Below, in pieces: positions 3,470 to 30,706 of a DNA stretch of 64,000 bases. The notes beneath the pieces were generated by a model. The model saw nothing but the letters and a program-made list of their open reading frames with translations, was not told the DNA's origin and did no database searches. Both the position numbers and the translations under genes were made by a program. The number at the start of each line of letters is the position of its first letter. Position 1 is the first letter of the stretch. Origin of the DNA: Hellea sp. (lineage in GTDB: Bacteria > Pseudomonadota > Alphaproteobacteria > Caulobacterales > Maricaulaceae); NCBI GenBank assembly GCA_013002305.1, contig JABDKG010000094.1, positions 1-64,000 of the forward strand. Direction: 5' to 3'.

Positions 3470-4312
3470 TCAGGCTCTCTTGCGCCGCTGGATTTGGTAG
3501 AGATTGATGATCTTGGCAGCGGTTTCTTCTATCGAACGACGGGTCACATCAACAACGGGATAGCCCTTTTTAACAAACATGCGTTTGGCGTCGCGCATTT
3601 CCAGCCGGACTTTATCTATATCTGTATAATCGGTCGTTCTATTTTCATTAAGGCCGATCAGTCTCTGGGTACGGATCTGCGATATCCGGTCTGGAGTGGC
3701 GATCAGCCCGACGATGAAGGGTTCGGGGAAATTATCCAAAATAACGGGTAGCGGCGCCGATGGAACGAGCGGTATATTACCGGTTTTATATCCGCGATTG
3801 GCAAGATAAATGCTGGTCGGGGTTTTCGATGTCCGGCTAATCCCTAAAAGAATGATATCGGCTTCGATCAGGCCGTGAACATTCTGCCCGTCATCATGGG
3901 CCATGGCGTAGTCAAGCGCAGCGATCCGGTCATAATATTCGCTATCGAGATTTCTTTGCGCGCCGACTTCATGGGAAATGGATGCACCGAGATAGCGGCC
4001 CAGCATGGCGAGCGACTGGTCTAAGATTGAAATTGCCTGAATTTGTCTTTCTTTGCAAAACTTTTCCAGCATTTTCCGCCGATCCGGATTGGCAATTGTA
4101 TAGAGCACGACGCCGGGTTTGTTTTCAATCTCTGAAAGTGTCCGGTTCATTTGTTCTTCAGATCTGACCAGCGCATGGAGGTGCTCAAGCGGCGTCGCGT
4201 TTCGAAATTGAGCGCAGCTGGCTTTCATCATTGCCACTAAAGTTTCGCCGGTTGAGTCGGAAACCAAGTGGACATGAAAATAAATCGAGATATTTTTATT
4301 ACGCGTGCTCAC
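3470..4312 (-). CDS. Bifunctional kinase-pyrophosphorylase (PPSRP / DUF299 family)
   Basis: Members of this family phosphorylate and dephosphorylate a threonine on phosphoenolpyruvate synthase or pyruvate phosphate dikinase, using ADP and phosphate respectively. The 280-aa product has the N-terminal LVSDSTGET signature (residues 16-24) and the P-loop-like GISRTSKT at 157-164, which is diagnostic for the family. The start is a GTG at 4312; no better ATG lies near. It is the gene that flanks the replication origin in Caulobacter, on the opposite side from hemE, and has the same position here. The target enzyme is not encoded in the window. Confidence 0.9.
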   Translation of the reverse strand: MSTRNKNISIYFHVHLVSDSTGETLVAMMKASCAQFRNATPLEHLHALVRSEEQMNRTLSEIENKPGVVLYTIANPDRRKMLEKFCKERQIQAISILDQSLAMLGRYLGASISHEVGAQRNLDSEYYDRIAALDYAMAHDDGQNVHGLIEADIILLGISRTSKTPTSIYLANRGYKTGNIPLVPSAPLPVILDNFPEPFIVGLIATPDRISQIRTQRLIGLNENRTTDYTDIDKVRLEMRDAKRMFVKKGYPVVDVTRRSIEETAAKIINLYQIQRRKRA

Positions 4313-4593
4313 GGGTGATTTTTTTGTACTTATTCGGAATTACTCACAAGGTAAAACTTTTTAGATCCTCTCCTTGGGACAATATCTATAAGTTGGGATA
4401 AGAAACGCAACTTTTCCACCCCCAACCCTAAAGTTTCTTGAATTAAGAGATTTGGCTTAATTATCCTTTCTACATTTTTATTGACTGAATTGTGCACAAT
4501 TTTATCTGCTTTAAAAACGGAGGGTCCAATGTTTATCCCCGTTATTTTAGCTCAGTGGACAATTCTATTCTATTGTGGGCAAAACTGTATAAA

Positions 4594-4608
4594 TTAAGCT
4601 TTTATTAA
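4594..4608. promoter_or_regulatory. CtrA-type box in the origin
   Basis: The sequence is a full TTAA-GCTTTTA-TTAA match to the TTAA-N7-TTAA pattern bound by the cell-cycle regulator CtrA, which represses initiation in Caulobacter. Confidence 0.65.
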
Positions 4609-4614
4609 ACTTGG

Positions 4615-4629
4615 TTACCAAAAGGTTAA
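4615..4629. promoter_or_regulatory. Second CtrA-type box in the origin
   Basis: TTAC-CAAAAGG-TTAA has one mismatch from the CtrA pattern. It lies 21 bases (two helical turns) from the first box and directly abuts the best DnaA box, an arrangement that would let the two proteins compete. Confidence 0.55.
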
Positions 4630-4631
4630 TT

Positions 4632-4640
4632 TCATCCACA
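4632..4640 (+). promoter_or_regulatory. DnaA box
   Basis: TCATCCACA differs from the consensus TTATCCACA at one base and is the best match in the intergenic region. It starts two bases after the second CtrA box. Confidence 0.6.
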
Positions 4641-4722
4641 CATCCACCGCCTCTATAACTATCATTACTTTTTTTATATATTAGAGGGCGACAATCCAGG
4701 CGGATAATTCTAGGTATAATTC

Positions 4723-5751
4723 GTGACCCAGACGATTTTAAAAGCCCTATCCGGCAATGCCGTAAGACCCTATCCTATCTGGATGATGCGTCAGGCTGGA
4801 AGGCATCTTCCAGAATATCTCAAGATCAGATCAAACGCTAAAGATTTTATAGATTTTTGTTTTTCTCCGGACAAAGCCGCGGAAGTTACCCTCCAGCCGG
4901 TTCGGCGTTATGACATGGACGCAGCGATATTATTTGCAGATATTTTACTTGTCCCGATCGCGCTCGGACGAGATGTAAAATTTATCAAAGGCACAGGTCC
5001 GGTATTAAATCCAATCACGGTGCAGGACATTCAAAAGATGAGCTGCGATATGTCTGTGCTCACACCCGTATATGAAACCGTGTCAAAAGTTCGTTCTGAT
5101 CTGGCCAAGGAAAAAACCCTTATCGGATTTTGCGGCGGTCCCTGGACTGTGGCCACTTATATGATCGAAGGACGAGGCTCTCCGAAAAAGGAAATGGCTA
5201 AAAGATTTGCCTATGAGAACATAGAGGCGATGGATGATCTGCTGCATCATCTGGCTGATGCCAGCGCCGATTATCTGATCAATCAAGCCAAGGCCGGCGC
5301 TGATGTCCTCAAAATATTTGAAAGCTGGGCGGAAAATCTCGCGCCTGATCTGTTTGACCGGCTGGTGATGAGCCCGACGCGGCAAATCATTGATAAGATC
5401 AGATCCAAAGGGATTAAAACTCCGATTATTGGCTTCCCGCGAGGCGCAGGCCTTAATGCGGTCCGTTACGCCAATAATCTTCCGCTGGATGGCTGCGCCG
5501 CGGGGACAGATGTCCCAATGGAAATGTTTCGCGCCCAAATTCCAAAAAATATGTGCACGCAAGGTAATCTTGACCCGCTGGCGCTTCGAATTGGCGGGGA
5601 CACTTTAAGATCATCCGTTCAGTCTGTGCTGGATAGTCTGTCGGGGCCCCATATATTTAATCTTGGCCACGGGGTCGCGCCGGATGTGAAAATTGAAAAT
5701 GTTCAAGCTGTGATCAGCCATGTTCGAACCGGAGATGGTCATTATGTATGA
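4723..5751 (+). CDS. hemE: Uroporphyrinogen decarboxylase
   Basis: HemE removes four acetate carboxyls from uroporphyrinogen III to give coproporphyrinogen III in haem synthesis. The 342-aa product carries both family signatures: PIWMMRQAGRHLPEY near residues 18-32 and GFCGGPWTVATYMIEG near 138-153. The start is a GTG at 4723, giving an N-terminus of normal length. A TATAAT at 4715-4720 is too close to this start to be its -10 element. hemJ follows with a short overlap, so two haem genes form a pair directly beside the origin. Confidence 0.95.
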   Translation: MTQTILKALSGNAVRPYPIWMMRQAGRHLPEYLKIRSNAKDFIDFCFSPDKAAEVTLQPVRRYDMDAAILFADILLVPIALGRDVKFIKGTGPVLNPITVQDIQKMSCDMSVLTPVYETVSKVRSDLAKEKTLIGFCGGPWTVATYMIEGRGSPKKEMAKRFAYENIEAMDDLLHHLADASADYLINQAKAGADVLKIFESWAENLAPDLFDRLVMSPTRQIIDKIRSKGIKTPIIGFPRGAGLNAVRYANNLPLDGCAAGTDVPMEMFRAQIPKNMCTQGNLDPLALRIGGDTLRSSVQSVLDSLSGPHIFNLGHGVAPDVKIENVQAVISHVRTGDGHYV

Positions 5752-10583: not shown

Positions 10584-10680
10584 TAGTTCAGAGAAGCGGC
10601 GTGCAAAAACCCGATCGGAGAACGTAGAAAAACCGCTGATTTTCTGCTATAGTGCCAGCTCATTTCTATAGGGGCGCACA

Positions 10681-11229
10681 ATGTTACAAATGCAAATATG
10701 CCGGGAAAGGCCAACCGCATCAGGTCTACAATTGGAATATTCTAAATTTGGAGCTGCTGGAGGCGCCGGCAGAATGCCCTGCACCCGAACGGGCAGTCTT
10801 CGGGTCTCAAACCAGTGCGCCGTTCGCATGAGCGTCGCGCTCAGCCGGAATATGGGGACAGACGTTCTGGGCGCGTTTAGGCGCGGCGGCGTTCATGGGC
10901 CCCGGTGCTGTGCGGGCACGGGAGCCGAGAAAGTCCGCCATATTACATCGGCGGAAAATCTGTTTACCTATCTCAGACGAACCCTGAACTTTCCATTTGT
11001 CAGAATATCCGGCGCCAATGATACCAATAGCCGTCCCGGAATTATTTATTTTGAAAATTGTTTTCACCGCAGCCGGGACCGGCGACGCGGTATCACGGAA
11101 AAACGGGGAGATCACATCGATTATTGGAACGGCTCGGCCTATTTCAACGCTGTCACCGGCAATAATGCCGCTCCGGCTGATCTGGATTTATTTGACAGAG
11201 CTTCTGCGGTCTGGTTCTACCGCGTCTAA
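10681..11229 (+). CDS. Tae4-like peptidoglycan amidase (type VI effector family)
   Basis: The 182-aa product resembles the Tae4 family of papain-like amidases, which cut the D-Glu-mDAP bond of peptidoglycan and are usually delivered into rival cells by type VI secretion. The expected catalytic cysteine is C46 in NQCAVRMSVAL, and the histidine is H145 in the hallmark GDHIDYWNG. GIIYFENCF precedes the histidine and the protein ends with an aromatic WFYR motif, as in the family. No Tai4-type immunity gene and no type VI structural gene lie beside it, which is unusual. There is no signal peptide. Function is inferred from family motifs. Confidence 0.8.
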   Translation: MLQMQICRERPTASGLQLEYSKFGAAGGAGRMPCTRTGSLRVSNQCAVRMSVALSRNMGTDVLGAFRRGGVHGPRCCAGTGAEKVRHITSAENLFTYLRRTLNFPFVRISGANDTNSRPGIIYFENCFHRSRDRRRGITEKRGDHIDYWNGSAYFNAVTGNNAAPADLDLFDRASAVWFYRV

Positions 11230-11242
11230 CGACTTAGTAAAC

Positions 11243-12709
11243 TCATTCCGCCGCTTCAGCCTGCTGGGCCGGACCCCCAAATACCAGACCATCACCTTCC
11301 AGATCTTTGGTGGGCAGAACTTTGCGATCCCGTTTGTAGTCCTGAAGGTTAAGCCACGGTTCGCGGTCGCCCTGTTTGGGCATCAGATGCAGAACCCGGT
11401 TAATATAGCCGGGATTAAAGATCGTAATCCAGGGCTTGGATTCCATCCCGTCCGGCGCAATCGGCGTGACCGACCGGGTGCCGGTTTTATCCATATGGTT
11501 GACGAGCCGGCACATAAATTCGGCGACCAGATCGGCGCGCAGCGTCCAAGACGCATTCACATAGCCAAACACTGAGGCCATATTGGGCACGCCCTCAAAC
11601 ATCATGGTTTCGTAATTAAACAGATCCGGGAAATGCACTTCTTTGCCGCCGATGGAAAAAACTGTGTCGCCCATGACATTGATGGTGATCCCGGTCGCCT
11701 TGACGATAATGTCAGTCTCCAGCACTTCGCCGGATTTCAGCTTGATGCCGTCCTTGGTGATCGTGTCGATATGGCCGGTGACGATAGAGGCGCTGCCATT
11801 ATTGATCGCCTCGTAAAGATCGCCGTCCGGCACAAGGCAAAGCCTTTGCTCCCAGGGATAATAAGGCGGGTTGAAATGGACATCGACCGGATAGTCGTCC
11901 GGCAGCGCTTTTTGGGTCCACTTCATCAGGTTTTTTTTGGCTTTTTCAGGTTTTCTGCGCGCCGACTTAAACAAAAAACTTTGACCAACAATATTCTTCC
12001 AGCGCGTAAATTTGTAAACCCAGCGATCCGGCAGCACCTTTCTCATGAGATTATTCAGCCCGTCTTTGGATGGCCGCGAGATGACATAAGACGGGGTACG
12101 CTGCACCATGGTGACATGGGCGGCGTCTTCGGCCATCGCCGGCAGCAGCGTCATCGCTGTCGCGCCGGATCCGATAATCACAACCTGCTTGTCCTTATAA
12201 TCGAGATTCTCATCCCAGAGCTGGGGATGGATTATCGGGCCTTTGAAGTTTTTCTCGCCTTTTATGTCCGGATTATGCGGCTCGTCATAAGAATAATATC
12301 CGGCGCACATAAACAGAAAATTACAGCGATAGCTCTCCCCGCTTTTGGTTTTGACGGTCCACCGACAGGCTTCGCGATCCCAGTCGGCGGACACAACTTT
12401 GGCATCATAGGTAATCTTGTCATCAATATTATGTTCGCGCGCCGTCTCGTGAATATAGTCCAGAATAGACGGGCCGTCAGCGATGGCTTTTTTGGCTTTC
12501 CACGGCTTAAATTTATAGCCCAGCGTATGCATGTCACTGTCAGAGCGAATGCCGGGATAGCGAAACAAATCCCAGGTCCCGCCTTTGGCGCCCCGGGCTT
12601 CTAATATTCGATAGCTCTTGCCGGGACATTCGCGGTTATAATGGACCGCCGCGCCAATACCGGACAAGCCCGCACCGACAATGATCAGATCTGTGTAATT
12701 GTCTGCCAT
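11243..12709 (-). CDS. Flavin-containing Baeyer-Villiger-type monooxygenase
   Basis: The product (488 aa from the chosen start) is a FAD- and NADPH-dependent monooxygenase of the class B flavoprotein group. The FAD-binding motif GAGLSG is at residues 12-17, GGTWDLFRYPG follows, the BVMO fingerprint FKGPIIHPQLWDE is near residue 160, and a second dinucleotide motif GSGATA comes after it. Such enzymes oxidise ketones, or sometimes heteroatoms or hydrocarbons; the substrate cannot be read. I chose the ATG at 12709 with GGTGG upstream; a GTG at 12721 would overlap the preceding gene. It lies two bases after the methyltransferase-like gene, in one unit. Confidence 0.86.
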   Translation of the reverse strand: MADNYTDLIIVGAGLSGIGAAVHYNRECPGKSYRILEARGAKGGTWDLFRYPGIRSDSDMHTLGYKFKPWKAKKAIADGPSILDYIHETAREHNIDDKITYDAKVVSADWDREACRWTVKTKSGESYRCNFLFMCAGYYSYDEPHNPDIKGEKNFKGPIIHPQLWDENLDYKDKQVVIIGSGATAMTLLPAMAEDAAHVTMVQRTPSYVISRPSKDGLNNLMRKVLPDRWVYKFTRWKNIVGQSFLFKSARRKPEKAKKNLMKWTQKALPDDYPVDVHFNPPYYPWEQRLCLVPDGDLYEAINNGSASIVTGHIDTITKDGIKLKSGEVLETDIIVKATGITINVMGDTVFSIGGKEVHFPDLFNYETMMFEGVPNMASVFGYVNASWTLRADLVAEFMCRLVNHMDKTGTRSVTPIAPDGMESKPWITIFNPGYINRVLHLMPKQGDREPWLNLQDYKRDRKVLPTKDLEGDGLVFGGPAQQAEAAE

Positions 12710-12711
12710 AT

Positions 12712-13176
12712 TTAAATCCACCGCCGCACGGTTTTCTTATAGCTTAAATAATCGTCGCCAAACAACTCGGTCATGGCCTTCTCTTCGGGCTTGATTTGAA
12801 ACTCGGTTATATAAAACACGAATCCGGCGATCGGGAAAATCGCTGCCCAATGCCCGCAATATATCGCAAAGCCGATTAGGATCATAAGCAAGCCGAGATA
12901 CATCGGGTTTCGCGTAAACCGGTAATAGCCCGAGCGCACTAACCGGCCGGCCTTTTGAGGGGACAGCGGATTGACCGTTGTTCTTGCTTTTCGAAACGCG
13001 CCCATTGCGATCAAATCCATAGATAAGCCAATTGCGGCGAACAGACTGGCGATCCACGGGCTGAGGACATGCCGGAAAACAGGCTCAGGCCAAAAATGCG
13101 ATATCGCCCATATCAGTACCAGTGTGATCAGGCCGACAACAGGCGGCGGGACCTTATTATTTAAAAATGAAAACAT
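12712..13176 (-). CDS. Isoprenylcysteine methyltransferase-family membrane protein
   Basis: The 154-aa product has about four membrane helices and the RSGYYRFTRNPMYLG motif with the following E-x-x-K region (PEEKAM...FGDDYLSYK). These mark the isoprenylcysteine carboxyl methyltransferase / phospholipid methyltransferase family (PF04191/PF04140-like). Bacterial members are SAM-dependent membrane methyltransferases with mostly unknown substrates. It is directly upstream of the monooxygenase, with a two-base gap, so the two are probably co-transcribed. Confidence 0.82.
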   Translation of the reverse strand: MFSFLNNKVPPPVVGLITLVLIWAISHFWPEPVFRHVLSPWIASLFAAIGLSMDLIAMGAFRKARTTVNPLSPQKAGRLVRSGYYRFTRNPMYLGLLMILIGFAIYCGHWAAIFPIAGFVFYITEFQIKPEEKAMTELFGDDYLSYKKTVRRWI

Positions 13177-13193
13177 GCCGATTTATAACCGGA

Positions 13194-13227
13194 CATAAAA
13201 AAACCTGCAAAGCTATTAGTTTGCAGG
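13194..13227 (-). terminator. Rho-independent terminator of the DUF3576 gene
   Basis: CCTGCAAA (13204-13211) pairs perfectly with TTTGCAGG (13220-13227) over an eight-base loop. Read leftward it is followed by a run of seven T. It lies just after the DUF3576 stop. Confidence 0.85.
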
Positions 13228-13250
13228 CTTAATATTCAAATTTGGGCGAA

Positions 13251-13709
13251 TTACCGCGCGTCGACCGTCGCAATATAAAGTTCGCGGGCGCGGGTCAGAA
13301 TAGCATTTTCAATCAGCCGGCCCGTATCTGCATCCATTGGCGCATCGATCCAGTCACTGCCGCTACGGGTTTGCTTGAAAATCGAGGTCTTGAGCGCATC
13401 GGCGCGCAGATTGGTATCGAGTATATAAACATTAGCTTTAAAACGCTCTGTCGGGACTTCCGGACTGGCATACCAGTCGGTGACAATGACGCCGCCAAAC
13501 GGATCCACCTGATCAAGCGGCATAAAGTTCAGGGTCTCAAGGCTGGCACGCCAGAGATAGGAGTTAACCCCCATGGACGGGGCGGTTTTGACCGTTTTGG
13601 TGGTCGCGGCTTTTTTGCCGCCGCCGATGATACCGCAACCGGATAATAGGGCGGCGCTGAGAGTGGCCGCCAATAGCAATTTACCGGCACGAATTGTTGA
13701 TTTTGACAT
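13251..13709 (-). CDS. DUF3576 family lipoprotein
   Basis: The 152-aa product matches the alphaproteobacterial DUF3576 family by its core: GVNSYLWRASLETLNFMPL, DPFGGVIVTDWY, and the C-terminal LTRARELYIA segment. It starts with a lipoprotein signal whose lipobox is LLSGC (C25), so it should be attached to the envelope. Its biochemical role is unknown. In many relatives this gene sits near leuS; here it stands alone with its own terminator and diverges from the porin gene. Confidence 0.82.
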   Translation of the reverse strand: MSKSTIRAGKLLLAATLSAALLSGCGIIGGGKKAATTKTVKTAPSMGVNSYLWRASLETLNFMPLDQVDPFGGVIVTDWYASPEVPTERFKANVYILDTNLRADALKTSIFKQTRSGSDWIDAPMDADTGRLIENAILTRARELYIATVDAR

Positions 13710-13854
13710 ACGGGTTACTCCGCTGAATTCTTTAAAATTTCCCGCTTATAACAGCTGTTTTGCGAAGCGCTAGTGCTCGCTTCATGAAAATCTCCTCATT
13801 TTTGCCTCAAATGGCTGATGTTAACACTTTATTAGGGCAGGTTAACGTAGATGG

Positions 13855-13869
13855 TTAACGTCGAATTAA
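13855..13869. promoter_or_regulatory. CtrA-type box upstream of the porin gene
   Basis: TTAA-CGTCGAA-TTAA is a perfect match to the CtrA pattern and ends 35 bases before the porin ATG. Two more GTTAAC half-site-like hexamers lie at 13820-13825 and 13841-13846, and a third overlaps the box. Confidence 0.6.
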
Positions 13870-13904
13870 GGATATTTGGCCGTCTGATGGGCAGGGAGTA
13901 GTAA

Positions 13905-15860
13905 ATGGGTGAGTTTCGTCAAACCGCACTGGTTTTCGTTTCGACATTGGCATTAAGCGGCCTCGGGCTTACCCTTGTCGCCCAAGCGCAAAATTCTCCG
14001 TCGCCATTTTCAAAAAAAGGCACTCAGGCTTGGGAGAAAGGCGCGGCTGCTCCGGCTAGTGCGCCGGCGACTTCGCAATCCGGTTATAGCTACCCCAATG
14101 TCGCGACGACCCAGCCGCAATATCAGTCCCGGTCAACCCAACAGCCAGCTGCTGAGAGCGGGGCCTATCAACCGAGCGGCAACCTAGCTGCGCCCGCCGC
14201 GAGCGCGCCGACAAAAGCGTATCCGTCGACTTATAATTATAGCCTGCCCAGCACGAACGAATCCGCGCCGATCAGCTACCCGGTTCAGCCTGCTTCAGTT
14301 GCCGCGTCCGGCGGAACACCCTACCCCAGCACCTATAAGGGCCCCGCGCCCGTCCAGACACAGCATGCTGCCCCGAGTCAGGCCAGCGGAACCTATTCCC
14401 CCGGCGCGTCTTATGATTATCCGTCTTATCAAAGGCACGGTGCCCAAGCTGCGCCCAGTCAGCCAGCCTTAAGGCCGGCCAGTCAGGCCAGCCATGCTAG
14501 CGGCGCCTATTATCCCGGGCGCGCAACCCAGCCCCATATGATGTCTCAAACTTACGGCGCGCAAACAGCGCAGGGTCAGCCCTACCCGCCGCAAGGCCAG
14601 CCCTATCCTAACCAATCAAGGCCCAATCAAGGCCCGATGATACAGCCGCGCGGTCCGCGGACTTTTGCGCAAAAAATGGGCCTCGATAATGTCGCTTTCC
14701 TTTATGAGGGTTATGTCAGAAGCGGCGCCGCGGCGACCTATCATGATCCAAATGATCTGGACCATGGTTGGCGCGAAGATTTCATTCTCGACGGATCGCT
14801 GCGCGCCGAGGTGAGCGCGATTACGCCGGGCGGTCTTGAATATGGTATCGCCGGGAAAGTGCGCGGCCAATATGACCAATATCGCCGCGGCTTTGGCGGA
14901 TTGGTTGGTGATTGTCCGGCCGGCGTCGCTGGCTGTAACAGCGTCAATGTCGGCGGCACGGATTATGTGCTGCGCGGACACACGTCGCGCTTTTACGCAT
15001 CCGGCGTCGATGATGCCAAGGATTTTGAAGCCCAGCTTGAAGGCGCCCATCTATTTTTGCGCTCCGGCTATGGTGATGTGACGCTTGGCCGTGACGACGG
15101 CGCGGCCTATCTATTCTCGCTTGGAGCCCCGACGCTTCTGAATGTCGGCGCGTCGAATAATTCGGTTGATTATACTGGCCTTGATGCGGTCAAAACCCTC
15201 AATGATGCGTCCGGTTTCTCCGAGAAAATCACCTATACTTCTCCGCGCCTGCTTGGCGATAATGTCGGCGTTGGCATTCAGTTTGGCGCCTCATATGCGC
15301 TCGACGCGGAAGCGTGCGGTGTGGATTATTGCGTACGCGGCAATAATGATGAACCGGCCGGCGTGCTCGGGGCTGACCTTGAGGACATCGCGGAATTTGG
15401 CATTGCGCTGGACCGTAAATTTGCCAATGGATTATCTGTCGAAGCGACGGGTACGTATGCGCGCGGTAGCGAGCAAAGCGGCCTCGCCGTGTTTGATGAT
15501 TTAGAGAGTTACGGATTGGCGCTCGAGCTGGGCTATGGCGACTTTATTCTCGGCGGATCTTATCTGGCGAGTAATAATGCGCTGGCCAATGGCGATTATA
15601 AAGCCATGGATATCGGCCTGACCTGGCAGCCTTCCCGGCTTGGGTTCACGGTTGGTTATGGCCACGCTGAGGATGATAATGTCGGCCTGACGTCTGATCA
15701 GGCGGTCGTTGGTGTCAGTTATGATTGGCGCGAAAATGTTCGCTTCAGTACCGGGCTTCAATATGTCAACCGTGATGTCAACGTCAATAATTTGGGACTT
15801 GTTTCCGGCCAGAACGAAGACGCGACATCTGTCTTTGTTGAGGGACGATTTACGTTTTAG
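13905..15860 (+). CDS. Outer-membrane porin with Pro/Gln/Ser/Tyr-rich N-terminal extension
   Basis: The 651-aa product has a signal peptide ending near AQAQN, then about 220 residues of low-complexity sequence rich in Pro, Ala, Gln, Ser and Tyr. A beta-barrel domain follows from about residue 250. It has alternating aromatic strands, the VTLGRDDGAAYLF segment and a terminal phenylalanine (RFTF) typical of BAM-inserted proteins. It resembles Gram-negative porins of the PF13609 type. The disordered extension is unusual and could reach peptidoglycan or line the pore; that is inference. AGGGAG precedes the ATG, and a CtrA box lies in the promoter region. Confidence 0.85.
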   Translation: MGEFRQTALVFVSTLALSGLGLTLVAQAQNSPSPFSKKGTQAWEKGAAAPASAPATSQSGYSYPNVATTQPQYQSRSTQQPAAESGAYQPSGNLAAPAASAPTKAYPSTYNYSLPSTNESAPISYPVQPASVAASGGTPYPSTYKGPAPVQTQHAAPSQASGTYSPGASYDYPSYQRHGAQAAPSQPALRPASQASHASGAYYPGRATQPHMMSQTYGAQTAQGQPYPPQGQPYPNQSRPNQGPMIQPRGPRTFAQKMGLDNVAFLYEGYVRSGAAATYHDPNDLDHGWREDFILDGSLRAEVSAITPGGLEYGIAGKVRGQYDQYRRGFGGLVGDCPAGVAGCNSVNVGGTDYVLRGHTSRFYASGVDDAKDFEAQLEGAHLFLRSGYGDVTLGRDDGAAYLFSLGAPTLLNVGASNNSVDYTGLDAVKTLNDASGFSEKITYTSPRLLGDNVGVGIQFGASYALDAEACGVDYCVRGNNDEPAGVLGADLEDIAEFGIALDRKFANGLSVEATGTYARGSEQSGLAVFDDLESYGLALELGYGDFILGGSYLASNNALANGDYKAMDIGLTWQPSRLGFTVGYGHAEDDNVGLTSDQAVVGVSYDWRENVRFSTGLQYVNRDVNVNNLGLVSGQNEDATSVFVEGRFTF

Positions 15861-16495
15861 ATCAGCCCGTCAATTCCGGCAACGCCCGCCGCGCCGCTAC
15901 CGACCAGCTCATCTGCATTTGTTGCTTTAACCCCGCCAAGCGCGAAAACCGGGACCGGCAATTTCCGGCTTATCTCTGTAAATCTGTCGACGCCGATCGG
16001 GTCTCCGGCCGACGGGCTCTTGGAGTAGAACACCGACGAGACCAGCAGCCCGTCCAATACTTCCAACGACCGATGATAGGTCTGCTCACCCTTCAGCCCG
16101 GCCATCGAAATAATCCAGTCCGGGCGTTTCTCCCGCCACAGGCGCGGTGCCAGCACATCGGCGTCGCGGCGAAAATGAACCCCGTTCGCGCCGATCGCGC
16201 TTGCCAGTTCGGGATCATGCCCGATAAGAAATTGCTGATTTTTAGCCGTGGTGATTTCGCGCAAAGTTTCGGCCAGCGCGCCGTGCCCGTTTTTACCAAA
16301 ATGCCGATAGATGATGGTAATCCCGTCCGGCAAAGCGCGCACAGTTGTGACCGGATCGGGCACGCGCTGCGGATCGGTCATGAAAATATATGGCGATAAG
16401 GCGCTCGGGCGCGGGCGGGCCGCCAATAATTTTTGCGCGGCGAGAGCCACGGCATGACTTCCCTTATATTCCCAATCTGTGTATGGGGCAGGCAT
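15857..16495 (-). CDS. Thiamine phosphate synthase-like protein (ThiE/TenI family)
   Basis: The product is a TIM-barrel protein resembling ThiE/TenI: FMTDPQR after the first strand, IYRHFG, GANGVHFRR, the SVFYSKS loop and FALGGVKATNADELVGSGAAGVAGI near the end. Alphaproteobacterial members of this subgroup are often not the true thiamine synthase, so the reaction is uncertain. I used the ATG at 16495, which overlaps the divergent yggS ATG by two bases; an internal start closer to the barrel is possible. Its end overlaps the porin stop by four bases on the opposite strand. Confidence 0.75.
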   Translation of the reverse strand: MPAPYTDWEYKGSHAVALAAQKLLAARPRPSALSPYIFMTDPQRVPDPVTTVRALPDGITIIYRHFGKNGHGALAETLREITTAKNQQFLIGHDPELASAIGANGVHFRRDADVLAPRLWREKRPDWIISMAGLKGEQTYHRSLEVLDGLLVSSVFYSKSPSAGDPIGVDRFTEISRKLPVPVFALGGVKATNADELVGSGAAGVAGIDGLI

Positions 16496-17180
16496 GAGCC
16501 AGGACCTTTCTGAAACTTCCATCGCCGAGCGGCGCGCCGCTATCCTAGAGCGGATTGCGCTGGCCGCCAAGAGCTCAGGCCGCAGTGCGGGCGAGATTAC
16601 ATTTGTCGCTGTGTCCAAACAGCAGCCGGATCAAAATGTAGCGGCGGCGCTGGCGGCCGGTCACAGGGTTTTTGGCGAAAACAGGGTGCAGGAAGCCGCG
16701 GCGCGCTGGGACGAACGGTTTATGGGCCATCGCGATCAGATCGAGCTGCGCCTGATCGGCCCGCTCCAGACCAATAAGGCCGTCGATGCCTGCTCTTTAT
16801 TTGACGTGATTGAGACGCTGGACCGGATGAAGCTGGCCGGCGCACTCATCAAGGCTGCGGAAAAAACCGGCCGGATGCCGCGCCTATTCGTGCAAGTCAA
16901 TATTGGCGCCGAAGATCAGAAATCCGGCGTGCTGCCGGGCGATCTTTCCGGCTTTTTAAAATCGCTCAAATCCGAATATGATATCACGCCCGAAGGGCTG
17001 ATGTGCATTCCGCCGCTCGGCGAGGCCGCCTCCCCGCATTTCTGGTATCTCGCAAATTTGGCCGAAAATCACGGCATCCAAAACCTCTCCATGGGCATGA
17101 GCAGCGACTATGAAACCGCTATAAAAATGGGCGCCACCCATATCAGGATTGGCAGCGCATTTTTAGGAGTGCGAGGCTGA
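16494..17180 (+). CDS. YggS family pyridoxal phosphate homeostasis protein
   Basis: The 228-aa product is a PLP-binding alanine-racemase-like TIM barrel (YggS/PROSC/YlmE family) that helps regulate vitamin B6 and amino-acid balance. The PLP lysine lies in FVAVSKQQP, followed by GHRVFGENRVQEA, FVQVNIGAEDQKSG and the phosphate-binding LSMGMSSDYETAIKMGATHIRIGSAFLG. The ATG at 16494 fits family length; upstream codons starting at 16479 would give an odd extension. It is divergent from the ThiE-like gene. Confidence 0.92.
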   Translation: MSQDLSETSIAERRAAILERIALAAKSSGRSAGEITFVAVSKQQPDQNVAAALAAGHRVFGENRVQEAAARWDERFMGHRDQIELRLIGPLQTNKAVDACSLFDVIETLDRMKLAGALIKAAEKTGRMPRLFVQVNIGAEDQKSGVLPGDLSGFLKSLKSEYDITPEGLMCIPPLGEAASPHFWYLANLAENHGIQNLSMGMSSDYETAIKMGATHIRIGSAFLGVRG

Positions 17181-17208
17181 TAATATTAGCACCTCTGTCA
17201 TTTTTGAC

Positions 17209-17679
17209 TTAAAAAGGGTTGGCGCGGGTAAACTCTTCCCATGTTTTGGAGTCTTCGTAAAAATATTCACGCCAGTGACTGATCCGCCCGTCCTTAATTT
17301 TAATTGAAACCATGCCATGGGCATTTCCGCCTTGCCAGGAAAATGAAAACTCTCCCGCCCCAACAGAAGTCGACGGATTAAAACTTATATGGTGCCAGTC
17401 CATTTTCATCCAGCTGTCCCGACCCGATTCGCCTCCGAAAAATTCAAATAGTGCAGGGCGGCCCTGATAAAGCTGTTTATCGGAAGGTTCGGAATAAACC
17501 GCGTTTTCCGAAAAAACCAAGGACGCTTTTCGGGCATCATTGTCATTCCACCCTTGCGCCAATTGTTGCAGTAAAGTTTCAAATTCGGATTGTCCGAAAC
17601 CCTGTTGAGCCGGCAATTTATGTGTGCAGGCCGATGTCAATAACAAGCCAAAAAACGCCCACAAAAATATTCTCGACAA
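17209..17679 (-). CDS. NTF2-like (SnoaL-type) lipoprotein
   Basis: The product is a small secreted protein with a nuclear-transport-factor-2-like fold: the helical QGWNDNDARKASLVFSENAVYSE segment, the YQGRPALFEFF helix, then strands ending in WREYFYEDSKTWEEF. Such folds serve as enzymes or binding scaffolds, and no specific function can be assigned. From a TTG at 17679 it begins with a short lipoprotein signal ending LLTSAC (C18). An upstream start would run into the preceding DUF1523 gene, so I favour the TTG, with moderate certainty. It is last in the leftward AAA+ cluster but may not belong to it. Confidence 0.65.
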   Translation of the reverse strand: MSRIFLWAFFGLLLTSACTHKLPAQQGFGQSEFETLLQQLAQGWNDNDARKASLVFSENAVYSEPSDKQLYQGRPALFEFFGGESGRDSWMKMDWHHISFNPSTSVGAGEFSFSWQGGNAHGMVSIKIKDGRISHWREYFYEDSKTWEEFTRANPF

Positions 17680-17692
17680 TCGAAAAATAGGA

Positions 17693-18379
17693 CTATTTAC
17701 TCCCGAACCATTTGCGCATGAAGCGGCGGAAGCCGGAGCTTTCATTTTTGAAACCCTCGCCGACGGCGTCTGTGGCGCTGCTGATTTTTTCAGCGGCCGC
17801 GTCTACGCTTTCATCGATTTTATCGGTGATCGGGTCGAGGCGTTTCTTGCGGAAACGGCGCCAGCGCAGCCAGACCCACATAAACAGCAGGAACAGCAGG
17901 CTGAGCACAACAATATTGAACCACGGGATCAGCCGGACATGCGGGCCTTCGACTTCCTTGAAACTGATGGCGTTAGGATACCAGGACATTAGTTCGACCC
18001 GCCAGCCATAATGTTTGACCGCAACCCAGAGCTCATTGCCGTTTTGCTGGCGCAAGATCAGATCCTGCGCGTCGGCGGTCAGATTACTGGTGTCAAATTT
18101 GAAATAGGGCGGCCAGCCCCAGCCCGTATCCTGATTGCGGTAGACCATCGGTTTACCGCTCGGCCTTTTGGTGGTGATGTAACGGACATCGCGATTAGGA
18201 AAACTGTCCGATCCGGCGTCGGCGCTCCCGGCTCCGAATGACTCGGCGGGCTTGTCGTCGCGAATTTCAAACGTCCCGACGACGCGGACAATATCGTGCT
18301 GCGGCAGATTATAATGCAGGAACAAAAGAACACCGAGTGCCAGGGCCACTTTGATCGCTGTTTTGATATGACCGAACAT
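17693..18379 (-). CDS. DUF1523-like membrane protein of the AAA+ cluster
   Basis: The 228-aa product has a membrane segment at residues 10-25, then LPQHDIVRVVGTFE, a periplasmic domain of about 125 residues, and a second membrane segment near 153-172 followed by a basic stretch and a helical C-terminal tail. This matches the alphaproteobacterial DUF1523 family, whose function is unknown. It is ten bases downstream of the small membrane protein gene and is the last clear member of the unit led by the coiled-coil protein. I infer that it anchors or senses for the cytoplasmic ATPase. Confidence 0.75.
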   Translation of the reverse strand: MFGHIKTAIKVALALGVLLFLHYNLPQHDIVRVVGTFEIRDDKPAESFGAGSADAGSDSFPNRDVRYITTKRPSGKPMVYRNQDTGWGWPPYFKFDTSNLTADAQDLILRQQNGNELWVAVKHYGWRVELMSWYPNAISFKEVEGPHVRLIPWFNIVVLSLLFLLFMWVWLRWRRFRKKRLDPITDKIDESVDAAAEKISSATDAVGEGFKNESSGFRRFMRKWFGSK

Positions 18380-18389
18380 GCGCCGTCTC

Positions 18390-18659
18390 CTATAAATTAT
18401 ACAAATATGTCAGCAGCCCGAACAGGGCGAGCGGGACGAGATAGACGCCTAAAACCAGCTTGGCCTTGAGCGAGCGTTTATATTTTTTCATCCCGGCATC
18501 AATATAGGCGTCCTTATCCATTTCGGGTTTGGTTTCTTTATAGGCCCGTTCGAGCCGGCTAACCTGCTTCCAGTGATTGCCAATCGTCAGGATAATGTAG
18601 AGCAGGGTCAGCAGAATAAACACGACGACAGCGCGCGAGATCAGGGCCCATAAGGTCAT
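18390..18659 (-). CDS. Small two-helix membrane protein of the AAA+ cluster
   Basis: The 89-aa protein has one membrane helix at residues 8-26 and another at 68-87, joined by a charged cytoplasmic or periplasmic loop (RLERAYKETKPEMDKDAYID). I do not recognise the family. Its start overlaps the stop of the DUF6638-like gene by four bases (ATGA), so it is translationally coupled to it, which strongly suggests a joint function. Confidence 0.75.
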   Translation of the reverse strand: MTLWALISRAVVVFILLTLLYIILTIGNHWKQVSRLERAYKETKPEMDKDAYIDAGMKKYKRSLKAKLVLGVYLVPLALFGLLTYLYNL

Positions 18660-19990
18660 GTCTTATACCGGACCTTGCGGCGCGGGGCGCGCGGGTCTTT
18701 CTTGGTTACGATATTATCCATTGACGGTTCGGGGCCAAACAAAGTTTCGCGCGCCGCCTCTTTATCCATCATATATTCCTCCGCCAAAAAACGCGAAACA
18801 AATTCCCGTTTGGGGTCAGACCATGTCCGGTATGTATCATAAAATGCCTGTTTATGACAAATAAAGAGCTGGCGGAAATCCAGCGGCGATAGCTCGGCCA
18901 GCAGCATATTGACCAGATCGCGATTGCGGTGCCGCTTGGACCGGAAGGCGTAAAAATAGCCCGGATGATCCGGATCAAGGCTCGGATAGCGGCCCTTATG
19001 CGAGGCCCAGCGATGGATTTCCATCAGGCCGAAATATTCCTCCGGTAACTGGTCGGCATATTTGCGGGCGATGGCGCGGATCTGCGGCCGCGACAGATCG
19101 CCGAGATCATCGCCAAGCTCGGCGGCGGTGGCGATGACAATAAAATCGAGCTTTTGCTGAATGATGGTCGCGTCGTCCTCGTTCTGCTCGGTGACGATCA
19201 GCTCGATCAGATTTTGCCGGTACAAATATTCGGCAATCTCGCGCCGGTTGGCAAAAGTGAATACGTGATCGACCTTCATATCGGCCAGTCCTTCGACCTC
19301 GATCTTGGCGATAACCGCGGGCTTTTTCATATCGCGAAAAATATACATGCCGCCAAAATGGCTGGTATGGTAATTGCCCTGCTCATAGGTTTTGGGCGAA
19401 AGCTGGATCGGGTGACGGGTGATGTCGCCGGTGGTTTTGGCCAGCTCGATCATGTCGGCGATCAGCACATCATCCCACCAGGCATCATCTTCTTTCATGA
19501 AGCGGTTAATGTGCTCCTGCAGGGTCTGGGCAAAGGCGATATGTTCGGTCACCGTATCGGCTTCGATCGAGATTTGATTGATCCGCAATAGATCAGACGG
19601 GGCCTCGACCTCGAACACGGAATTGACAAGCTCGCCGGTCACCGCCTCGCGCGCGGTCAGGGCAAACAGCTCTTCTTCATTATCCTCGATAAAATCGCGC
19701 AATATTTCCCGCGAGGTCGAAAATTTCGACGAGATCAGCGGCGCTGTTTTCTGATCGGGCGAGAGCAGAATGAACTGCTGGTTGCAGCCCTTGGGATTAA
19801 GATAGAGCTCATCGTCAAATTCGTCACCGATCTCCGGCGAGTAGCCACAAATATCGACATGAAATTCCGTCAGTTTGGTTTCCTTGCCGATCAAATGCTT
19901 AAGCGCGCGATTATAGCGGCTGACCAAAGCTTCCGAGGACACCTCGATCAGGTTGCCGAACATCAGACCCTGTCGGACGAGCCGCATCAT
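18656..19990 (-). CDS. DUF6638-like cytoplasmic protein of the AAA+ cluster
   Basis: The product (444 aa from the ATG at 19990) is a soluble, acidic protein without signal or membrane segments and ends in a basic tail (DPRAPRRKVRYKT). I recall the family as DUF6638, which occurs beside AAA+ ATPases in alphaproteobacteria; this is from memory and not verified. Recognisable stretches include YSPEIGDEFDDELYLNPKGCNQQFILLSPDQKTAPLIS and SYKGR-like HKGRYPSLDPDHPGYFYAFRSKRHRNRDLVN. An in-frame start at 20065 would translate through a palindromic intergenic repeat, so the 19990 start is preferred. Function unknown. Confidence 0.78.
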   Translation of the reverse strand: MMRLVRQGLMFGNLIEVSSEALVSRYNRALKHLIGKETKLTEFHVDICGYSPEIGDEFDDELYLNPKGCNQQFILLSPDQKTAPLISSKFSTSREILRDFIEDNEEELFALTAREAVTGELVNSVFEVEAPSDLLRINQISIEADTVTEHIAFAQTLQEHINRFMKEDDAWWDDVLIADMIELAKTTGDITRHPIQLSPKTYEQGNYHTSHFGGMYIFRDMKKPAVIAKIEVEGLADMKVDHVFTFANRREIAEYLYRQNLIELIVTEQNEDDATIIQQKLDFIVIATAAELGDDLGDLSRPQIRAIARKYADQLPEEYFGLMEIHRWASHKGRYPSLDPDHPGYFYAFRSKRHRNRDLVNMLLAELSPLDFRQLFICHKQAFYDTYRTWSDPKREFVSRFLAEEYMMDKEAARETLFGPEPSMDNIVTKKDPRAPRRKVRYKT

Positions 19991-20007
19991 AACTTTAACA
20001 CCCGCCC

Positions 20008-20098
20008 ATCCCCCGTCTGATCGGGGATCCATTTTTGAACACCTTTTCAGCCAGCCCGCTGTCACAGAATAGATCCCCGCTTTCGCGAGGATGAGCGG
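20008..20098. repeat. Degenerate palindromic intergenic repeat
   Basis: Two hairpins lie in the gap between the AAA+ and DUF6638-like genes. ATCCCC (20008-20013) pairs with GGGGAT (20023-20028), and ATCCCCGC (20073-20080) pairs with GCGAGGAT (20085-20092) with one mismatch. The sequence around them resembles the CATCCCCGCGAAAGCGGGGAT type of dispersed palindromic repeat common in alphaproteobacterial genomes. It could lower expression of the downstream genes. Confidence 0.55.
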
Positions 20099-20119
20099 AA
20101 TATTTTAGAAGCCTGCGCA

Positions 20120-22078
20120 CTACCCGCCCTTCTCCGCGAGATAACGCCGCTTGGCTTCCTCCATCCGGTTCATGTCGCGCACCGCGCTCTCAATCGCGAC
20201 CTCGTCGGATTTATCGGCGTAGCGGAACTCGCTGTCAGCATAGCGGTTGATCTCCTGCATCACCATTTCAATGGTGATCGGTTTGGACAGATCCGCGATC
20301 ATGTCCTTTTTGGTGTCATAATCTTTGGTCAGGAACAGGTCCGGTTTTTCCATCCACTCATCGGGCAGTTCAAAATCCATCGCCCGGACTTTAACCGCGT
20401 CGGTGATATTTTTGATTGAGCGGCCGGTAAAGCGTTCATCGACGTCCTGAATGCCCTTCAGATATGTCCCGATTTTGGCCAGCGTGTCGAGCTTGCCGAC
20501 ATCTTTGGAAACCCGGTCAAATACTTTTGCCAGCCCGTCTTCGAGCGGGCGCGAGTGTTTTTTGTAAGAGGCGTGCACCGCTTTTTTGATCTGCTGGGTC
20601 TCATAAAGCTTGTGCTTGCCAACCGGGATTTTGTGGTTCTTGCCCATCAAGAGATGCAGAATATCAATATAATCTTCGCGCGACTGCGGACCGTCGACCA
20701 GAAAGCGCGCCGCCGCCCGTTGGCGCAGCGCATCATCGACATTTTCCGGATAGTTGGAAAACATCCCGAAGGTGCAATTGCCGCGAACCACCGTATTGGC
20801 ACCGGCGAAACTTTCCATCAGCACGGCCGTAATCTCGAGCTGACCGGCGGAGGATTGGCGGTCGCCGCGTTTGCCCGCGAGCTGGTCAATATCATCGATC
20901 GTGCCAAAGCCGATGACATGCGGGTCGATGATGTTACGAATAAAAGCCTTGGCGTTTTGCGCCGACTTGCCCTGATAGCTGTCTATCGAGTCGGTCGAAA
21001 GATTTTCATAGCGGAACGGATAGCCGGCATTATTGCAATAATCATTGATCAGCCCGGCCATCATTTGAATGAGCGTGGTCTTGCCCGTGCCCGGTTTGCC
21101 ATCGCCCATAAATGTAAAGATAAATCCGCCGAGCTCGGCAAACGGATTAAGCATCCGCTCGAAATCATAGGCCATGATCATTTTGGACAGTTTCATCGAT
21201 TGATATTTGGCGATGTGATTGCCAACCACCTGATGCGGCTTCTTAAAGCTCATGACAAATTTGGTGCTGCGCGCCTTGGCAAAGGGCGTGAAACCGTCGA
21301 TCTGGAAATCATCGGCCTCGACCCGGTAACTGACCGATTTGAAAGCTTCCAGACGGGGCGTGTTCTCGGCCCGCAGGACGACCGCGTCCATCAGCTGTTC
21401 CAGAAAGGCCGAAACAACGGCAATGAGCTCGTCTTCGCGCTGGGCGAAAAGCGCAATGTCCTGATCCAGCTCCCAGAGCGCGCCGGTCAAAGCCAGCTGC
21501 GGATTATCGGTCAGAACTTCCTGGACCGGTCCGATTTCAATCGTGCTTTCGGTAAGCTCGGCCTGATGGGTGGCGAGCTGGTAGCTGGCCATATTGGCAA
21601 ACACATGCAGGCTGATCAGCGCCGAGGCGGCCAGCAGTTCAGAAAAGTCCTTGGCCTGGGAGGATGATAATTTTCCGGCCAGATTGTCCTTGAGCATTTC
21701 GTTAAGGCCGGTTTGGGCCGCGTACAGATCAGAGACCACCATCGCCGTTGCAATCGCCCGGCGCAGCGATGTCAGAACGCTGGCCTGAAGCGGCGAGGTC
21801 AGCACATCGCTGCCGCCAATTGCATTGACCCGGTCGATCAGGCGGATGCCGTCCGGGCGCGCAGTCGACTGAGCGGCCAGCCCCGGCGTGGTTGATCGGA
21901 ACCGGCGGCCGCCGCCGCCAATGCCTGAGGAGCGTTCTTTTTTGGGGGCGCTTGGCAGGTCGCGTTTTTTGGCGAGACGCGGCGTATGGTCAAAGCCGCT
22001 CAGCAGGCTTTCCGCGGCCACGTATTTTTCCGTAATCCGCTCTTCTTTAATCTCCATCAGGTCGCCGGTTTGGGACAT
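20120..22078 (-). CDS. AAA+ ATPase, core of an uncharacterised cluster
   Basis: The 652-aa protein has a basic, glycine-rich N-terminal tail (residues 30-80), a helical domain (80-310) and an AAA+ module. The Walker A motif GDGKPGTGKTT is at 325-335, the Walker B-like VIGFGTIDDID at 388-398, and a sensor/arginine-finger region LRQRAAARFL ends near 460. A C-terminal helical region follows. The module is like those of remodelling or chaperone ATPases and is not a DNA-helicase type. It lies eight bases after the lysine-tract gene. Function unknown; the cluster suggests a membrane-linked machine that acts on the coiled-coil protein. Confidence 0.82.
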   Translation of the reverse strand: MSQTGDLMEIKEERITEKYVAAESLLSGFDHTPRLAKKRDLPSAPKKERSSGIGGGGRRFRSTTPGLAAQSTARPDGIRLIDRVNAIGGSDVLTSPLQASVLTSLRRAIATAMVVSDLYAAQTGLNEMLKDNLAGKLSSSQAKDFSELLAASALISLHVFANMASYQLATHQAELTESTIEIGPVQEVLTDNPQLALTGALWELDQDIALFAQREDELIAVVSAFLEQLMDAVVLRAENTPRLEAFKSVSYRVEADDFQIDGFTPFAKARSTKFVMSFKKPHQVVGNHIAKYQSMKLSKMIMAYDFERMLNPFAELGGFIFTFMGDGKPGTGKTTLIQMMAGLINDYCNNAGYPFRYENLSTDSIDSYQGKSAQNAKAFIRNIIDPHVIGFGTIDDIDQLAGKRGDRQSSAGQLEITAVLMESFAGANTVVRGNCTFGMFSNYPENVDDALRQRAAARFLVDGPQSREDYIDILHLLMGKNHKIPVGKHKLYETQQIKKAVHASYKKHSRPLEDGLAKVFDRVSKDVGKLDTLAKIGTYLKGIQDVDERFTGRSIKNITDAVKVRAMDFELPDEWMEKPDLFLTKDYDTKKDMIADLSKPITIEMVMQEINRYADSEFRYADKSDEVAIESAVRDMNRMEEAKRRYLAEKGG

Positions 22079-22086
22079 CTCTCTTC

Positions 22087-23250: not shown

Positions 23251-23271
23251 GATCGGATCGAAATAATTCCC

Positions 23272-24357: not shown

Positions 24358-24382
24358 GTCGTCCCCTTAATTTTTCAATTCT

Positions 24383-24388
24383 ATTATA
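24383..24388 (-). promoter_or_regulatory. Probable -10 element of the AAA+ cluster promoter
   Basis: Read leftward this is a perfect TATAAT, 26 bases before the coiled-coil ATG. A partial -35 (GCGACA) lies 19 bases further upstream, so only the -10 is convincing. Confidence 0.4.
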
Positions 24389-24444
24389 TAACATCTAGGG
24401 GCGACTTTGTCGCGTTTCAATCCTGCATTCCTAAATAGCGGATA

Positions 24445-24482
24445 AAATAAAACCCGCCATGCCCTAAAAGCAAAGCGGGTTT
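24445..24482 (-). terminator. Rho-independent terminator of the small NTF2-like gene
   Basis: AAACCCGC (24450-24457) pairs with GCGGGTTT (24475-24482) over a 17-base loop; read leftward it is followed by a T-rich tail. Confidence 0.7.
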
Positions 24483-26066: not shown

Positions 26067-26082
26067 TGTTTCACGTGAAACA
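26067..26082. other. parS: Centromere site parS (first copy)
   Basis: TGTTTCACGTGAAACA is the perfect 16-bp palindromic parS consensus bound by ParB. It lies between the broken ParB-like gene and mnmG, about 21.6 kb from the predicted origin. Confidence 0.95.
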
Positions 26083-28095: not shown

Positions 28096-28111
28096 TGTTT
28101 CACGTGAAACA
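28096..28111. other. parS: Centromere site parS (second copy)
   Basis: A second perfect TGTTTCACGTGAAACA, extended to 20 bases of perfect symmetry (28094-28113), lies between mnmG and rsmG, 2.03 kb from the first. Confidence 0.95.
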
Positions 28112-28798: not shown

Positions 28799-29602
28799 AT
28801 GGCTTCAACCACAGCCCCCGCCGCATCGCGGGCCCGCATCATTGCCATCGTCAACCAGAAGGGCGGCGTTGGAAAAACCACGACGACGATTAACCTCGCC
28901 GCCGCGCTCACTCTGCTCGGCAAAAAAGTTTTGCTGGTCGATATGGATCCGCAAGGCAATGCTTCGACCGGGCTGGCGATCTCCAGAAAGTTGCGGGGGG
29001 TCTCAATTTATAATGTGCTGGTCGACGGCACGTCGATCAAAGATGCGATTAAGCAGACGAGTGTTGAAAACCTTTCGATCATCCCGTCTCATATTGATCT
29101 CTCGGCCGCCGAGCTCGAGATTGGCGGGCAGGCGGGCCGCACCACCAAGCTCAAAAATGCCATGGCGCCAATCGCCCGGGACTATGATTATATCCTGATA
29201 GACTGCCCGCCGGCGCTTGGCCTGCTGACCGTCAATTCTCTCGCCGCCGCCCACTCGGCTTTCGTGCCGTTGCAATGTGAATTTTACGCGCTCGAAGGTC
29301 TATCGCAACTTCTACGGACGGTCGAAATGGCCAAGTCTACGATCAACCCGGACCTCGTCATAGAGGGGGTCATGCTGACCATGTATGACAAGCGAAATCG
29401 CCTGTCCGGACAGGTCGCTGCCGACGTCAAAAAACATCTTGGCCGGGCGGTTTTTAAAACCATCATTCCGCGCAATGTCCGGATCGCTGAAGCGCCGTCA
29501 TTTGGTCAGCCCGTGATGATGTATGATCCTGAATGCGCCGGTGCCAAAGCCTACATGGCACTCGGACGAGAGCTGCTAAGACGGCACGATAAACGTAAGT
29601 AA
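28799..29602 (+). CDS. parA: Chromosome-partitioning ATPase ParA
   Basis: ParA is the DNA-binding ATPase whose gradient moves ParB-parS complexes apart. The 267-aa product has the deviant Walker A motif KGGVGKTT at residues 21-28, the VDMDPQGNAST switch, the Walker B DYILIDCPPALG and the C-terminal NVRIAEAPSFGQPV segment. The short N-terminus without an HTH fits chromosomal (type Ib) ParA. parB follows 15 bases later. Confidence 0.96.
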   Translation: MASTTAPAASRARIIAIVNQKGGVGKTTTTINLAAALTLLGKKVLLVDMDPQGNASTGLAISRKLRGVSIYNVLVDGTSIKDAIKQTSVENLSIIPSHIDLSAAELEIGGQAGRTTKLKNAMAPIARDYDYILIDCPPALGLLTVNSLAAAHSAFVPLQCEFYALEGLSQLLRTVEMAKSTINPDLVIEGVMLTMYDKRNRLSGQVAADVKKHLGRAVFKTIIPRNVRIAEAPSFGQPVMMYDPECAGAKAYMALGRELLRRHDKRK

Positions 29603-29617
29603 AACAAAAGGTTAACC

Positions 29618-30706
29618 ATGGCCAAGACCAAAAAAACTACCAAGTCAACACCGCCCAAACGCGGGCTGGGCAGGGGGCTGTCCGCCCTAATGGAAGATGT
29701 TGGCATGGAGACCATCATCGAGAAAACGGCCGACCCAAAAGCCGTACCAAAATCTAAGGCAAAACCGAAATCAACCCCCAAATCCAAACGCAAGACAACC
29801 GCCAAATCTCCGCCGAAAACGACGGCTAAAACCAAGCCCAAAACCAAGCCAAAAACGACCCCTAAAAAGCCCCCCCAAACCACGGCCGAAAAATCCATCA
29901 ACCATGTCGCCATGGATCAGCTCACCCGTAACCCGGATCAGCCGCGGCGCTATTTCGACAGCGCGCTTTTGGACGAGCTCGCCGCCTCCATAAAAGATAA
30001 AGGCGTGCTGCAGCCAATTCTCGTACGCCCGCTCCCGAAGAGCGTCAAAGGCAAGATCGGCCGCTCGAAAAAACCGGCCTATCAGATCATAGCCGGGGAG
30101 CGCCGTTGGCAGGCCGCGATCCAGGCCGGGCTGACGACGATCCCGGTTTTCGTCCGCGAAATCACCGACCGCGAAGCGCTCGAAATTGGCGTTGTTGAAA
30201 ATGTCCACCGCGCTGATCTTAATCCGATGGAAGAGGCGCTGGCCTATAAATCCTTGCTGACCCAGTTTAAACGTACCCAGGAAGATGTCGCCGGCGCGGT
30301 CGGAAAATCCCGTCCCTATATTGCCAATATGCTTCGGCTCTTAACCCTGCCATCCGCGGTTCAGTCCTATCTGGCCGAAGGCAAGATCAGCACCGGCCAC
30401 GCCCGCGCCATCATCGCCGCGCCCGACCCCGAAGCGCTCGCCAACGCCATCGTCGACAAAGATCTGTCCGTCCGCGACGCCGAGAGCTGGGTGCGCCGGC
30501 TCAAACAATCAGACAACGCCCCGGCGCTCGAAAAAGCCATAAAAGAACAAAAATCCGCCGACATTCGTCACGTGGAAAAGCAAATTGAAGATGTACTCGG
30601 CCTAAAAGTCGATTTGCGCCACAAGGGTAGGGGCGGCGAGCTTCGCCTTAAATATAAAAGCAATGATCAGCTTGAGGGGTTGATTGCGAAGCTGGTAAAG
30701 GGGTAG
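29618..30706 (+). CDS. parB: Chromosome-partitioning protein ParB
   Basis: ParB is the CTP-dependent clamp that loads at parS and spreads. The 362-aa product begins with the ParA-stimulating RGLGRGLSALM segment (15-25), then an unusually long Lys/Pro/Thr tract (45-92), then the CTPase domain with GERRW at 160-164 and ENVHRADLNP at 194-203. The parS-reading HTH is at about 224-262, and the dimerisation domain is at the end. The tract lengthens the flexible N-terminus beyond the usual ~290-300 aa total and could bind DNA or ParA non-specifically; that is inference. Confidence 0.95.
   Translation: MAKTKKTTKSTPPKRGLGRGLSALMEDVGMETIIEKTADPKAVPKSKAKPKSTPKSKRKTTAKSPPKTTAKTKPKTKPKTTPKKPPQTTAEKSINHVAMDQLTRNPDQPRRYFDSALLDELAASIKDKGVLQPILVRPLPKSVKGKIGRSKKPAYQIIAGERRWQAAIQAGLTTIPVFVREITDREALEIGVVENVHRADLNPMEEALAYKSLLTQFKRTQEDVAGAVGKSRPYIANMLRLLTLPSAVQSYLAEGKISTGHARAIIAAPDPEALANAIVDKDLSVRDAESWVRRLKQSDNAPALEKAIKEQKSADIRHVEKQIEDVLGLKVDLRHKGRGGELRLKYKSNDQLEGLIAKLVKG

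Follow-up and report, generated by a model that had tools for sequence, protein, structure and literature searches.

The closest described system is the chromosome origin of Caulobacter (Cori), which was mapped experimentally and is flanked by hemE and the PPSRP (COG1806) gene (PMC1914354). Its five CtrA sites are spread along the origin, one of them overlapping an IHF site (PMC1914354, PMC4285127), and a competition between CtrA and DnaA has been proposed for it (PMC1914354, PMC4285127, PMC6399470). More generally, it is known that CtrA controls alphaproteobacterial origins and competes with DnaA there (PMC4285127, PMC4468827). Related solutions are found with Spo0A in Bacillus, HP1021 in Helicobacter and MtrA in Mycobacterium, where likewise DnaA or the unwinding step is blocked by a regulator bound at the origin (PMC4285127, PMC4468827). 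The basal unwinding system (BUS) was described in Bacillus and is predicted to occur widely; in Bacillus subtilis a DnaA box, a weaker box, a short spacer, trinucleotides and an AT-rich stretch follow each other in this order (PMC8287927, PMC6669920). The portions of Ori-Finder 2022 and of a DnaA-ATP review that deal with these elements treat the DnaA-trio and CtrA separately and describe no linkage of the two.

Here, we present a predicted origin of a Hellea-like marine bacterium in which both kinds of elements stand side by side. The analysed window, a stretch of 64,000 nucleotides, is the start of contig C79 in a draft genome of 2.94 Mb comprising 102 contigs. The nearest named relatives of this host are Hellea, Litorimonas, Algimonas and Robiginitomaculum, all of them marine relatives of Caulobacter. 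With Cori the locus shares the flanking genes hemE and PPSRP, CtrA boxes of the type TTAA-N7-TTAA (the pattern used throughout), weak DnaA boxes and parS sites in the neighborhood. In contrast with Cori, only a clustered pair of CtrA boxes is matched here with at most one mismatch, and this pair immediately precedes the DnaA box at the presumed unwinding site. Furthermore, neither a perfect IHF consensus (only one-mismatch matches within AT-rich sequence) nor a GANTC (CcrM) site is present in the gap between the two genes. GANTC is also absent from this gap in six of the eight other genus members, and many relatives have several such sites.

The gap between PPSRP and hemE as predicted chromosome origin

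The gap is almost certainly the chromosome origin of this bacterium, and this placement is supported by the agreement of GC skew, parS sites and synteny. All 111 loci compared contain the arrangement PPSRP–gap–hemE, with a gap length of about 350–610 bp in all intact relatives. In the window, the genes that come after hemE are a hemJ-like gene (UPF0093), rho and mnmE. The high A+T content of the gap (Table 1) stands against 53% G+C in the surrounding region. A search for parS allowing one mismatch returned exactly two sites in the whole genome, both perfect and both within the window. They are located beside parAB at a distance of 21–24 kb from the gap, compared with approximately 8 kb in Cori, and this pair brackets gidA and adjoins gidB, parA and parB. 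The gene mnmE is separated from mnmG-rsmG-parAB by about 15 kb of other genes (window positions 10600–26100). In the genomes G021, G017 and G027 the distance from parS to hemE is only about 5–9 kb.

As the host genome is a draft of 102 contigs, GC skew was evaluated in the complete family member G010 (60 stretches, 1.14 Mb, two-state fit). There the best-fit switch lies at 3.13–3.14 Mb (3.09–3.15 Mb within 5% SSE) and hemE starts at 3.151 Mb, i.e. the switch falls at the same gap, with a second switch roughly opposite at 1.50 Mb; three of the four parS-like sites of G010 are found at 3.168–3.170 Mb. The first-pass annotation had matched the gap with the position of the Caulobacter origin and had proposed cumulative skew as a check. 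Its assignment is supported by the synteny, by parS and parAB and by the skew switch of G010. Altogether, the features familiar from Cori, namely a gene-pair gap, position-conserved CtrA boxes, several DnaA boxes and nearby parABS, were all found in the window, and the skew switch at the gap was seen in the complete relative, not in the host draft.

Table 1. Positions of origin-related features within the window (genus counts refer to boxes aligned among nine genus members)
Feature	Position	Strand	Remarks
Predicted chromosome origin, PPSRP–hemE intergenic gap	4313..4722		66% A+T; synteny
PPSRP (DUF299/COG1806 family), left flanking gene	3470..4312	-	divergent from hemE
hemE, right flanking gene	4723..5751	+	
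Weak upstream DnaA box TTACTCACA	4340..4348	+	aligned with at most two mismatches in 9/9 genus members
Weak DnaA box TTTTCCACC	4412..4420	+	6/9 genus members
Weak DnaA box TTGTGCACA	4490..4498	+	7/9 genus members
Weak DnaA box TTATCCCCG	4533..4541	+	5/9 genus members
Weak DnaA box TTGCCCACA	4574..4582	-	7/9 genus members
CtrA box 1 TTAAGCTTTTATTAA	4594..4608	+	perfect match
CtrA box 2 TTACCAAAAGGTTAA	4615..4629	+	one mismatch
DnaA box TCATCCACA	4632..4640	+	one mismatch, best in gap
Second DnaA-like half-box ACATCCACC	4640..4648	+	TCCAC / TCACAGG in relatives
DnaA-trio-like tract CTA TAA CTA TCA TTA CTT	4653..4670		degenerate here
AT-rich stretch, candidate DNA unwinding element	4668..4684		follows the trio tract in 35 clade members
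parS site TGTTTCACGTGAAACA	26067..26082		one of two genome-wide
parS site TGTTTCACGTGAAACA	28096..28111		second of two genome-wide
parA and parB	28799..30706	+	Pfam AAA_31 and ParB_N/HTH_ParB/ParB_C

CtrA boxes, DnaA boxes and the triplet tract

The two CtrA-pattern boxes mentioned in the first-pass annotation are indeed present, with starts 21 bases apart and 6 bp between them, and the best DnaA box of the gap follows the second one after two bases (4630–4631), as had also been noticed. The description of these sites as overlapping holds for their juxtaposition only: the sequences abut, and any overlap would be one of protein footprints. Counts of single boxes were rejected as evidence, being at chance level over the window and thus uninformative: with at most one mismatch 23 CtrA boxes were found in 64 kb (22.6 expected) and 11 DnaA boxes (9.9 expected), i.e. 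neither type is enriched. The chance of the combination was estimated from 4,000 Markov simulations of the AT-rich gap. Of the simulated gaps, 8.8% contained a perfect CtrA box, 2.3% a CtrA pair and 0.075% (3/4,000) such a pair directly adjoined by a DnaA box, values that are approximate, as are those of the shuffle tests. The 21-bp pattern of the CtrA pair has a single match in the 2.94 Mb of the genome, located in the gap, and this uniqueness is weak evidence because the reversed control also gives one match.

Strong evidence for the predicted CtrA/DnaA arrangement comes from positional conservation across relatives, not from uniqueness, the compared relatives being connected by kinship and therefore not mutually independent. 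In the genus alignment CtrA box 1 lies between -131 and -128 relative to hemE and carries one mismatch in most members, and the DnaA box at 4632–4640 is kept with at most two mismatches in all nine members. Measured from the triplet tract in 35 clade members, CtrA boxes with at most one mismatch cluster at -57/-56 (15/35) and at -36/-35 (22/35) and, with few exceptions, are rare elsewhere; the second cluster corresponds to box 2, found at its offset or one base off. In the alignment of nine genus members the block 4603–4642 reaches a pairwise identity of 0.78, compared with 0.53 for the whole gap, and conservation extends to the right as far as about 4692.

The pyrimidine-rich triplet tract CTCTATAACTATCATTACTT spans positions 4651–4670 and comes close to CTA repeats in relatives, e.g. 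CTCTACTACTATCACTACTT in locus L018. The complementary strand would be the one that carries the trios, with the consensus 3'-GAT-5'. A generic box-box-trio score was applied to all 97 distinct gaps and proved too permissive, as it beat all 20 shuffles in only 27 of them; in its stead a matrix was built from the genus alone and tried on other genera. In the 26 held-out relatives this matrix picks out the tract at the equivalent position (p<=0.02 for 18 of them), and the T fraction in the tract is 0.66 in the middle phase compared with 0.19 and 0.33 in the other phases. By the published BUS definition, a run of three or more trios (3'-NAN-5') should lie no further than 16 bp from the box. In the Hellea-like host four of the six trios have the conserved middle base with a longest run of two, and only 6 of the 35 clade members reach three in succession. 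The other part of the definition, a DnaA box with at most two mismatches beside the unwinding site, usually as a tandem pair, is present. Thus, the locus resembles the Bacillus subtilis BUS in the kind and order of its elements and differs from it by the degenerate tract and by the CtrA pair attached upstream; since the strict trio rule does not hold, we call the element BUS-like and not a BUS member.

Taken together, the CtrA pair, DnaA box, half-box, trio-like tract and AT-rich stretch constitute one fixed module of about 90 bp. It begins with CtrA box 1, continues over 6 bp to CtrA box 2 and over 2 bp to the DnaA box, and then runs through half-box and tract into the AT-rich stretch. The module occupies the right end of the gap and is better conserved than any other part of it. 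The first-pass annotation had underestimated the element, as the DnaA box heads a longer module that is kept even in four genomes without hemE beside the gap. A composite pattern that joins CtrA box 2 with the DnaA box, the half-box and the first triplets was run against 137 family genomes. It has a single match in each of 15 genomes, which belong to five genera, and its reversed control gives no match. PPSRP adjoins the pattern in all 15 cases and hemE in 11; among relatives without hemE it is unmatched in some (G020, G077). Locus L059 (Hellea sp. MAG-75) has retained the trio-like tract and lost the two CtrA boxes next to it, with a perfect CtrA box at -300 instead.

To the right of the AT-rich stretch, a second unwinding module in mirror image (TTGTCCCCC followed by CTCTA on the opposite strand) was considered and rejected, as the inverted repeat is not maintained from genus to genus. 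On the minus strand of 4684–4700 most genus members have TTGTCCC(CC) and then CTCTA toward the AT-rich stretch, possibly a facing DnaA-like element. A search for RNA elements gave no Rfam match in the window.

The four genomes without hemE at the gap (G070, G104, G111 and G118) are members of one genus. In G070, G104 and G118 rho takes the place of hemE beside the module, and in G111 the 3' end of ctrA lies next to it in convergent orientation, behind an inverted repeat that resembles a terminator. This ctrA gene (L195:5336-6028), directly beside the origin, encodes a protein 83% identical to Caulobacter CtrA. A genome-wide search detected no hemE in G070, G111 and G118, and G104 has a distant copy. 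Both hemB and hemE were undetected in G111, G118, G020 and G077 (92–100% complete, one genus), and in G070 this concerns hemE only. In the neighborhoods seen (loci L195, L197 and L198) the origin has lost both hemE and hemJ as neighbors. The missing hemB and hemE in several members of one genus suggest a loss of haem synthesis.

Proposed blocking of the unwinding site by CtrA

From the sites and their conservation, which can be read in the sequence, we infer binding by CtrA and DnaA, blocking and unwinding: the gap is probably an origin whose site of DnaA loading and unwinding is directly blocked by CtrA. DnaA bound at 4632–4640 and 4640–4648 would nucleate a filament running rightward onto the triplet tract, and this filament would open the AT-rich stretch. 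Phosphorylated CtrA would bind in the form of two dimers, which the spacing of 21 bp (two turns) would place on one face of the helix, cover or crowd the DnaA box and so block DnaA nucleation in non-replicating cells; after dephosphorylation or degradation of CtrA, DnaA would gain access. Both proteins are encoded in the host genome, CtrA with 84% identity to the Caulobacter protein. The competition of CtrA and DnaA suggested in the first-pass annotation is consistent with these genes and with the juxtaposition of the sites at an offset fixed over the family. The host dnaA gene seems to be split across two contig ends, with profile positions 29–437 on C65 and 1–61 on C40.

That the origin is located elsewhere and the gap represents an ordinary conserved intergenic region is highly improbable. 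The skew of the draft host cannot be plotted as a whole and is noisy inside the window, which leaves some room for such a reading, yet the parS clustering in the host genome and in G010, the skew switch of G010 at the same gap and the synteny with the mapped Caulobacter origin all contradict it. Rather unlikely, though less so, is an origin in which the conserved CtrA block serves chiefly as CtrA-controlled promoter or leader of hemE and the competition with DnaA is secondary. In its favor, most relatives have the block 60–130 bp ahead of the hemE start, promoters are the typical sites of CtrA action, and in Caulobacter a strong, CtrA-repressed hemE promoter lies inside the origin. Against this, no sigma-70-like promoter was found on the plus strand at the block and four genomes keep the module beside PPSRP without hemE. 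As the module survives the loss of its neighbor, it is not just a hemE promoter and behaves as expected of an origin.

An origin at this place without competition, the CtrA boxes being vestigial or bound without effect on initiation, is given an equally small probability. It would agree with L059, which retains the tract without the CtrA pair, and with several origins of Wolbachia and Ehrlichia that have few or no CtrA boxes (PMC1914354). It is difficult to reconcile with the fixed spacing, with the CtrA half-sites conserved within the genus and with the unique composite pattern in five genera. Direct blocking of the DnaA site by CtrA is thus the reading we prefer.

A predicted clade-specific variant of the CtrA-controlled origin

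What appears to be new is the fixed geometry, i.e. a clade-specific variant of the CtrA-controlled origin. In the Caulobacter loci L080 and L083 a CtrA box lies inside the AT-rich stretch instead, and in Phenylobacterium and Brevundimonas loci the CtrA boxes are mainly at least 100 bp away. The origins controlled by Spo0A, HP1021 or MtrA differ in their regulators and sites, whereas here the spacing between the regulator sites and the DnaA box is fixed over five genera. Accounts of how CtrA blocks DnaA mostly deal with CtrA sites dispersed along the origin; in the present case the blocking would concern one unit of about 90 bp, small enough for a single reconstituted unwinding assay. L059, which lacks the adjacent pair, is a natural case for testing how an origin fires in its absence and, together with G070, G104, G111 and G118, a natural control for separating origin from promoter function. 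We propose tentatively, with somewhat less than even confidence, that CtrA occupies a composite element of fixed layout to which the DnaA unwinding site is fused. The basal unwinding machinery may in this way be gated directly by a response regulator, and the element may be selected as a unit, staying with PPSRP when hemE is lost and standing in one relative beside ctrA.
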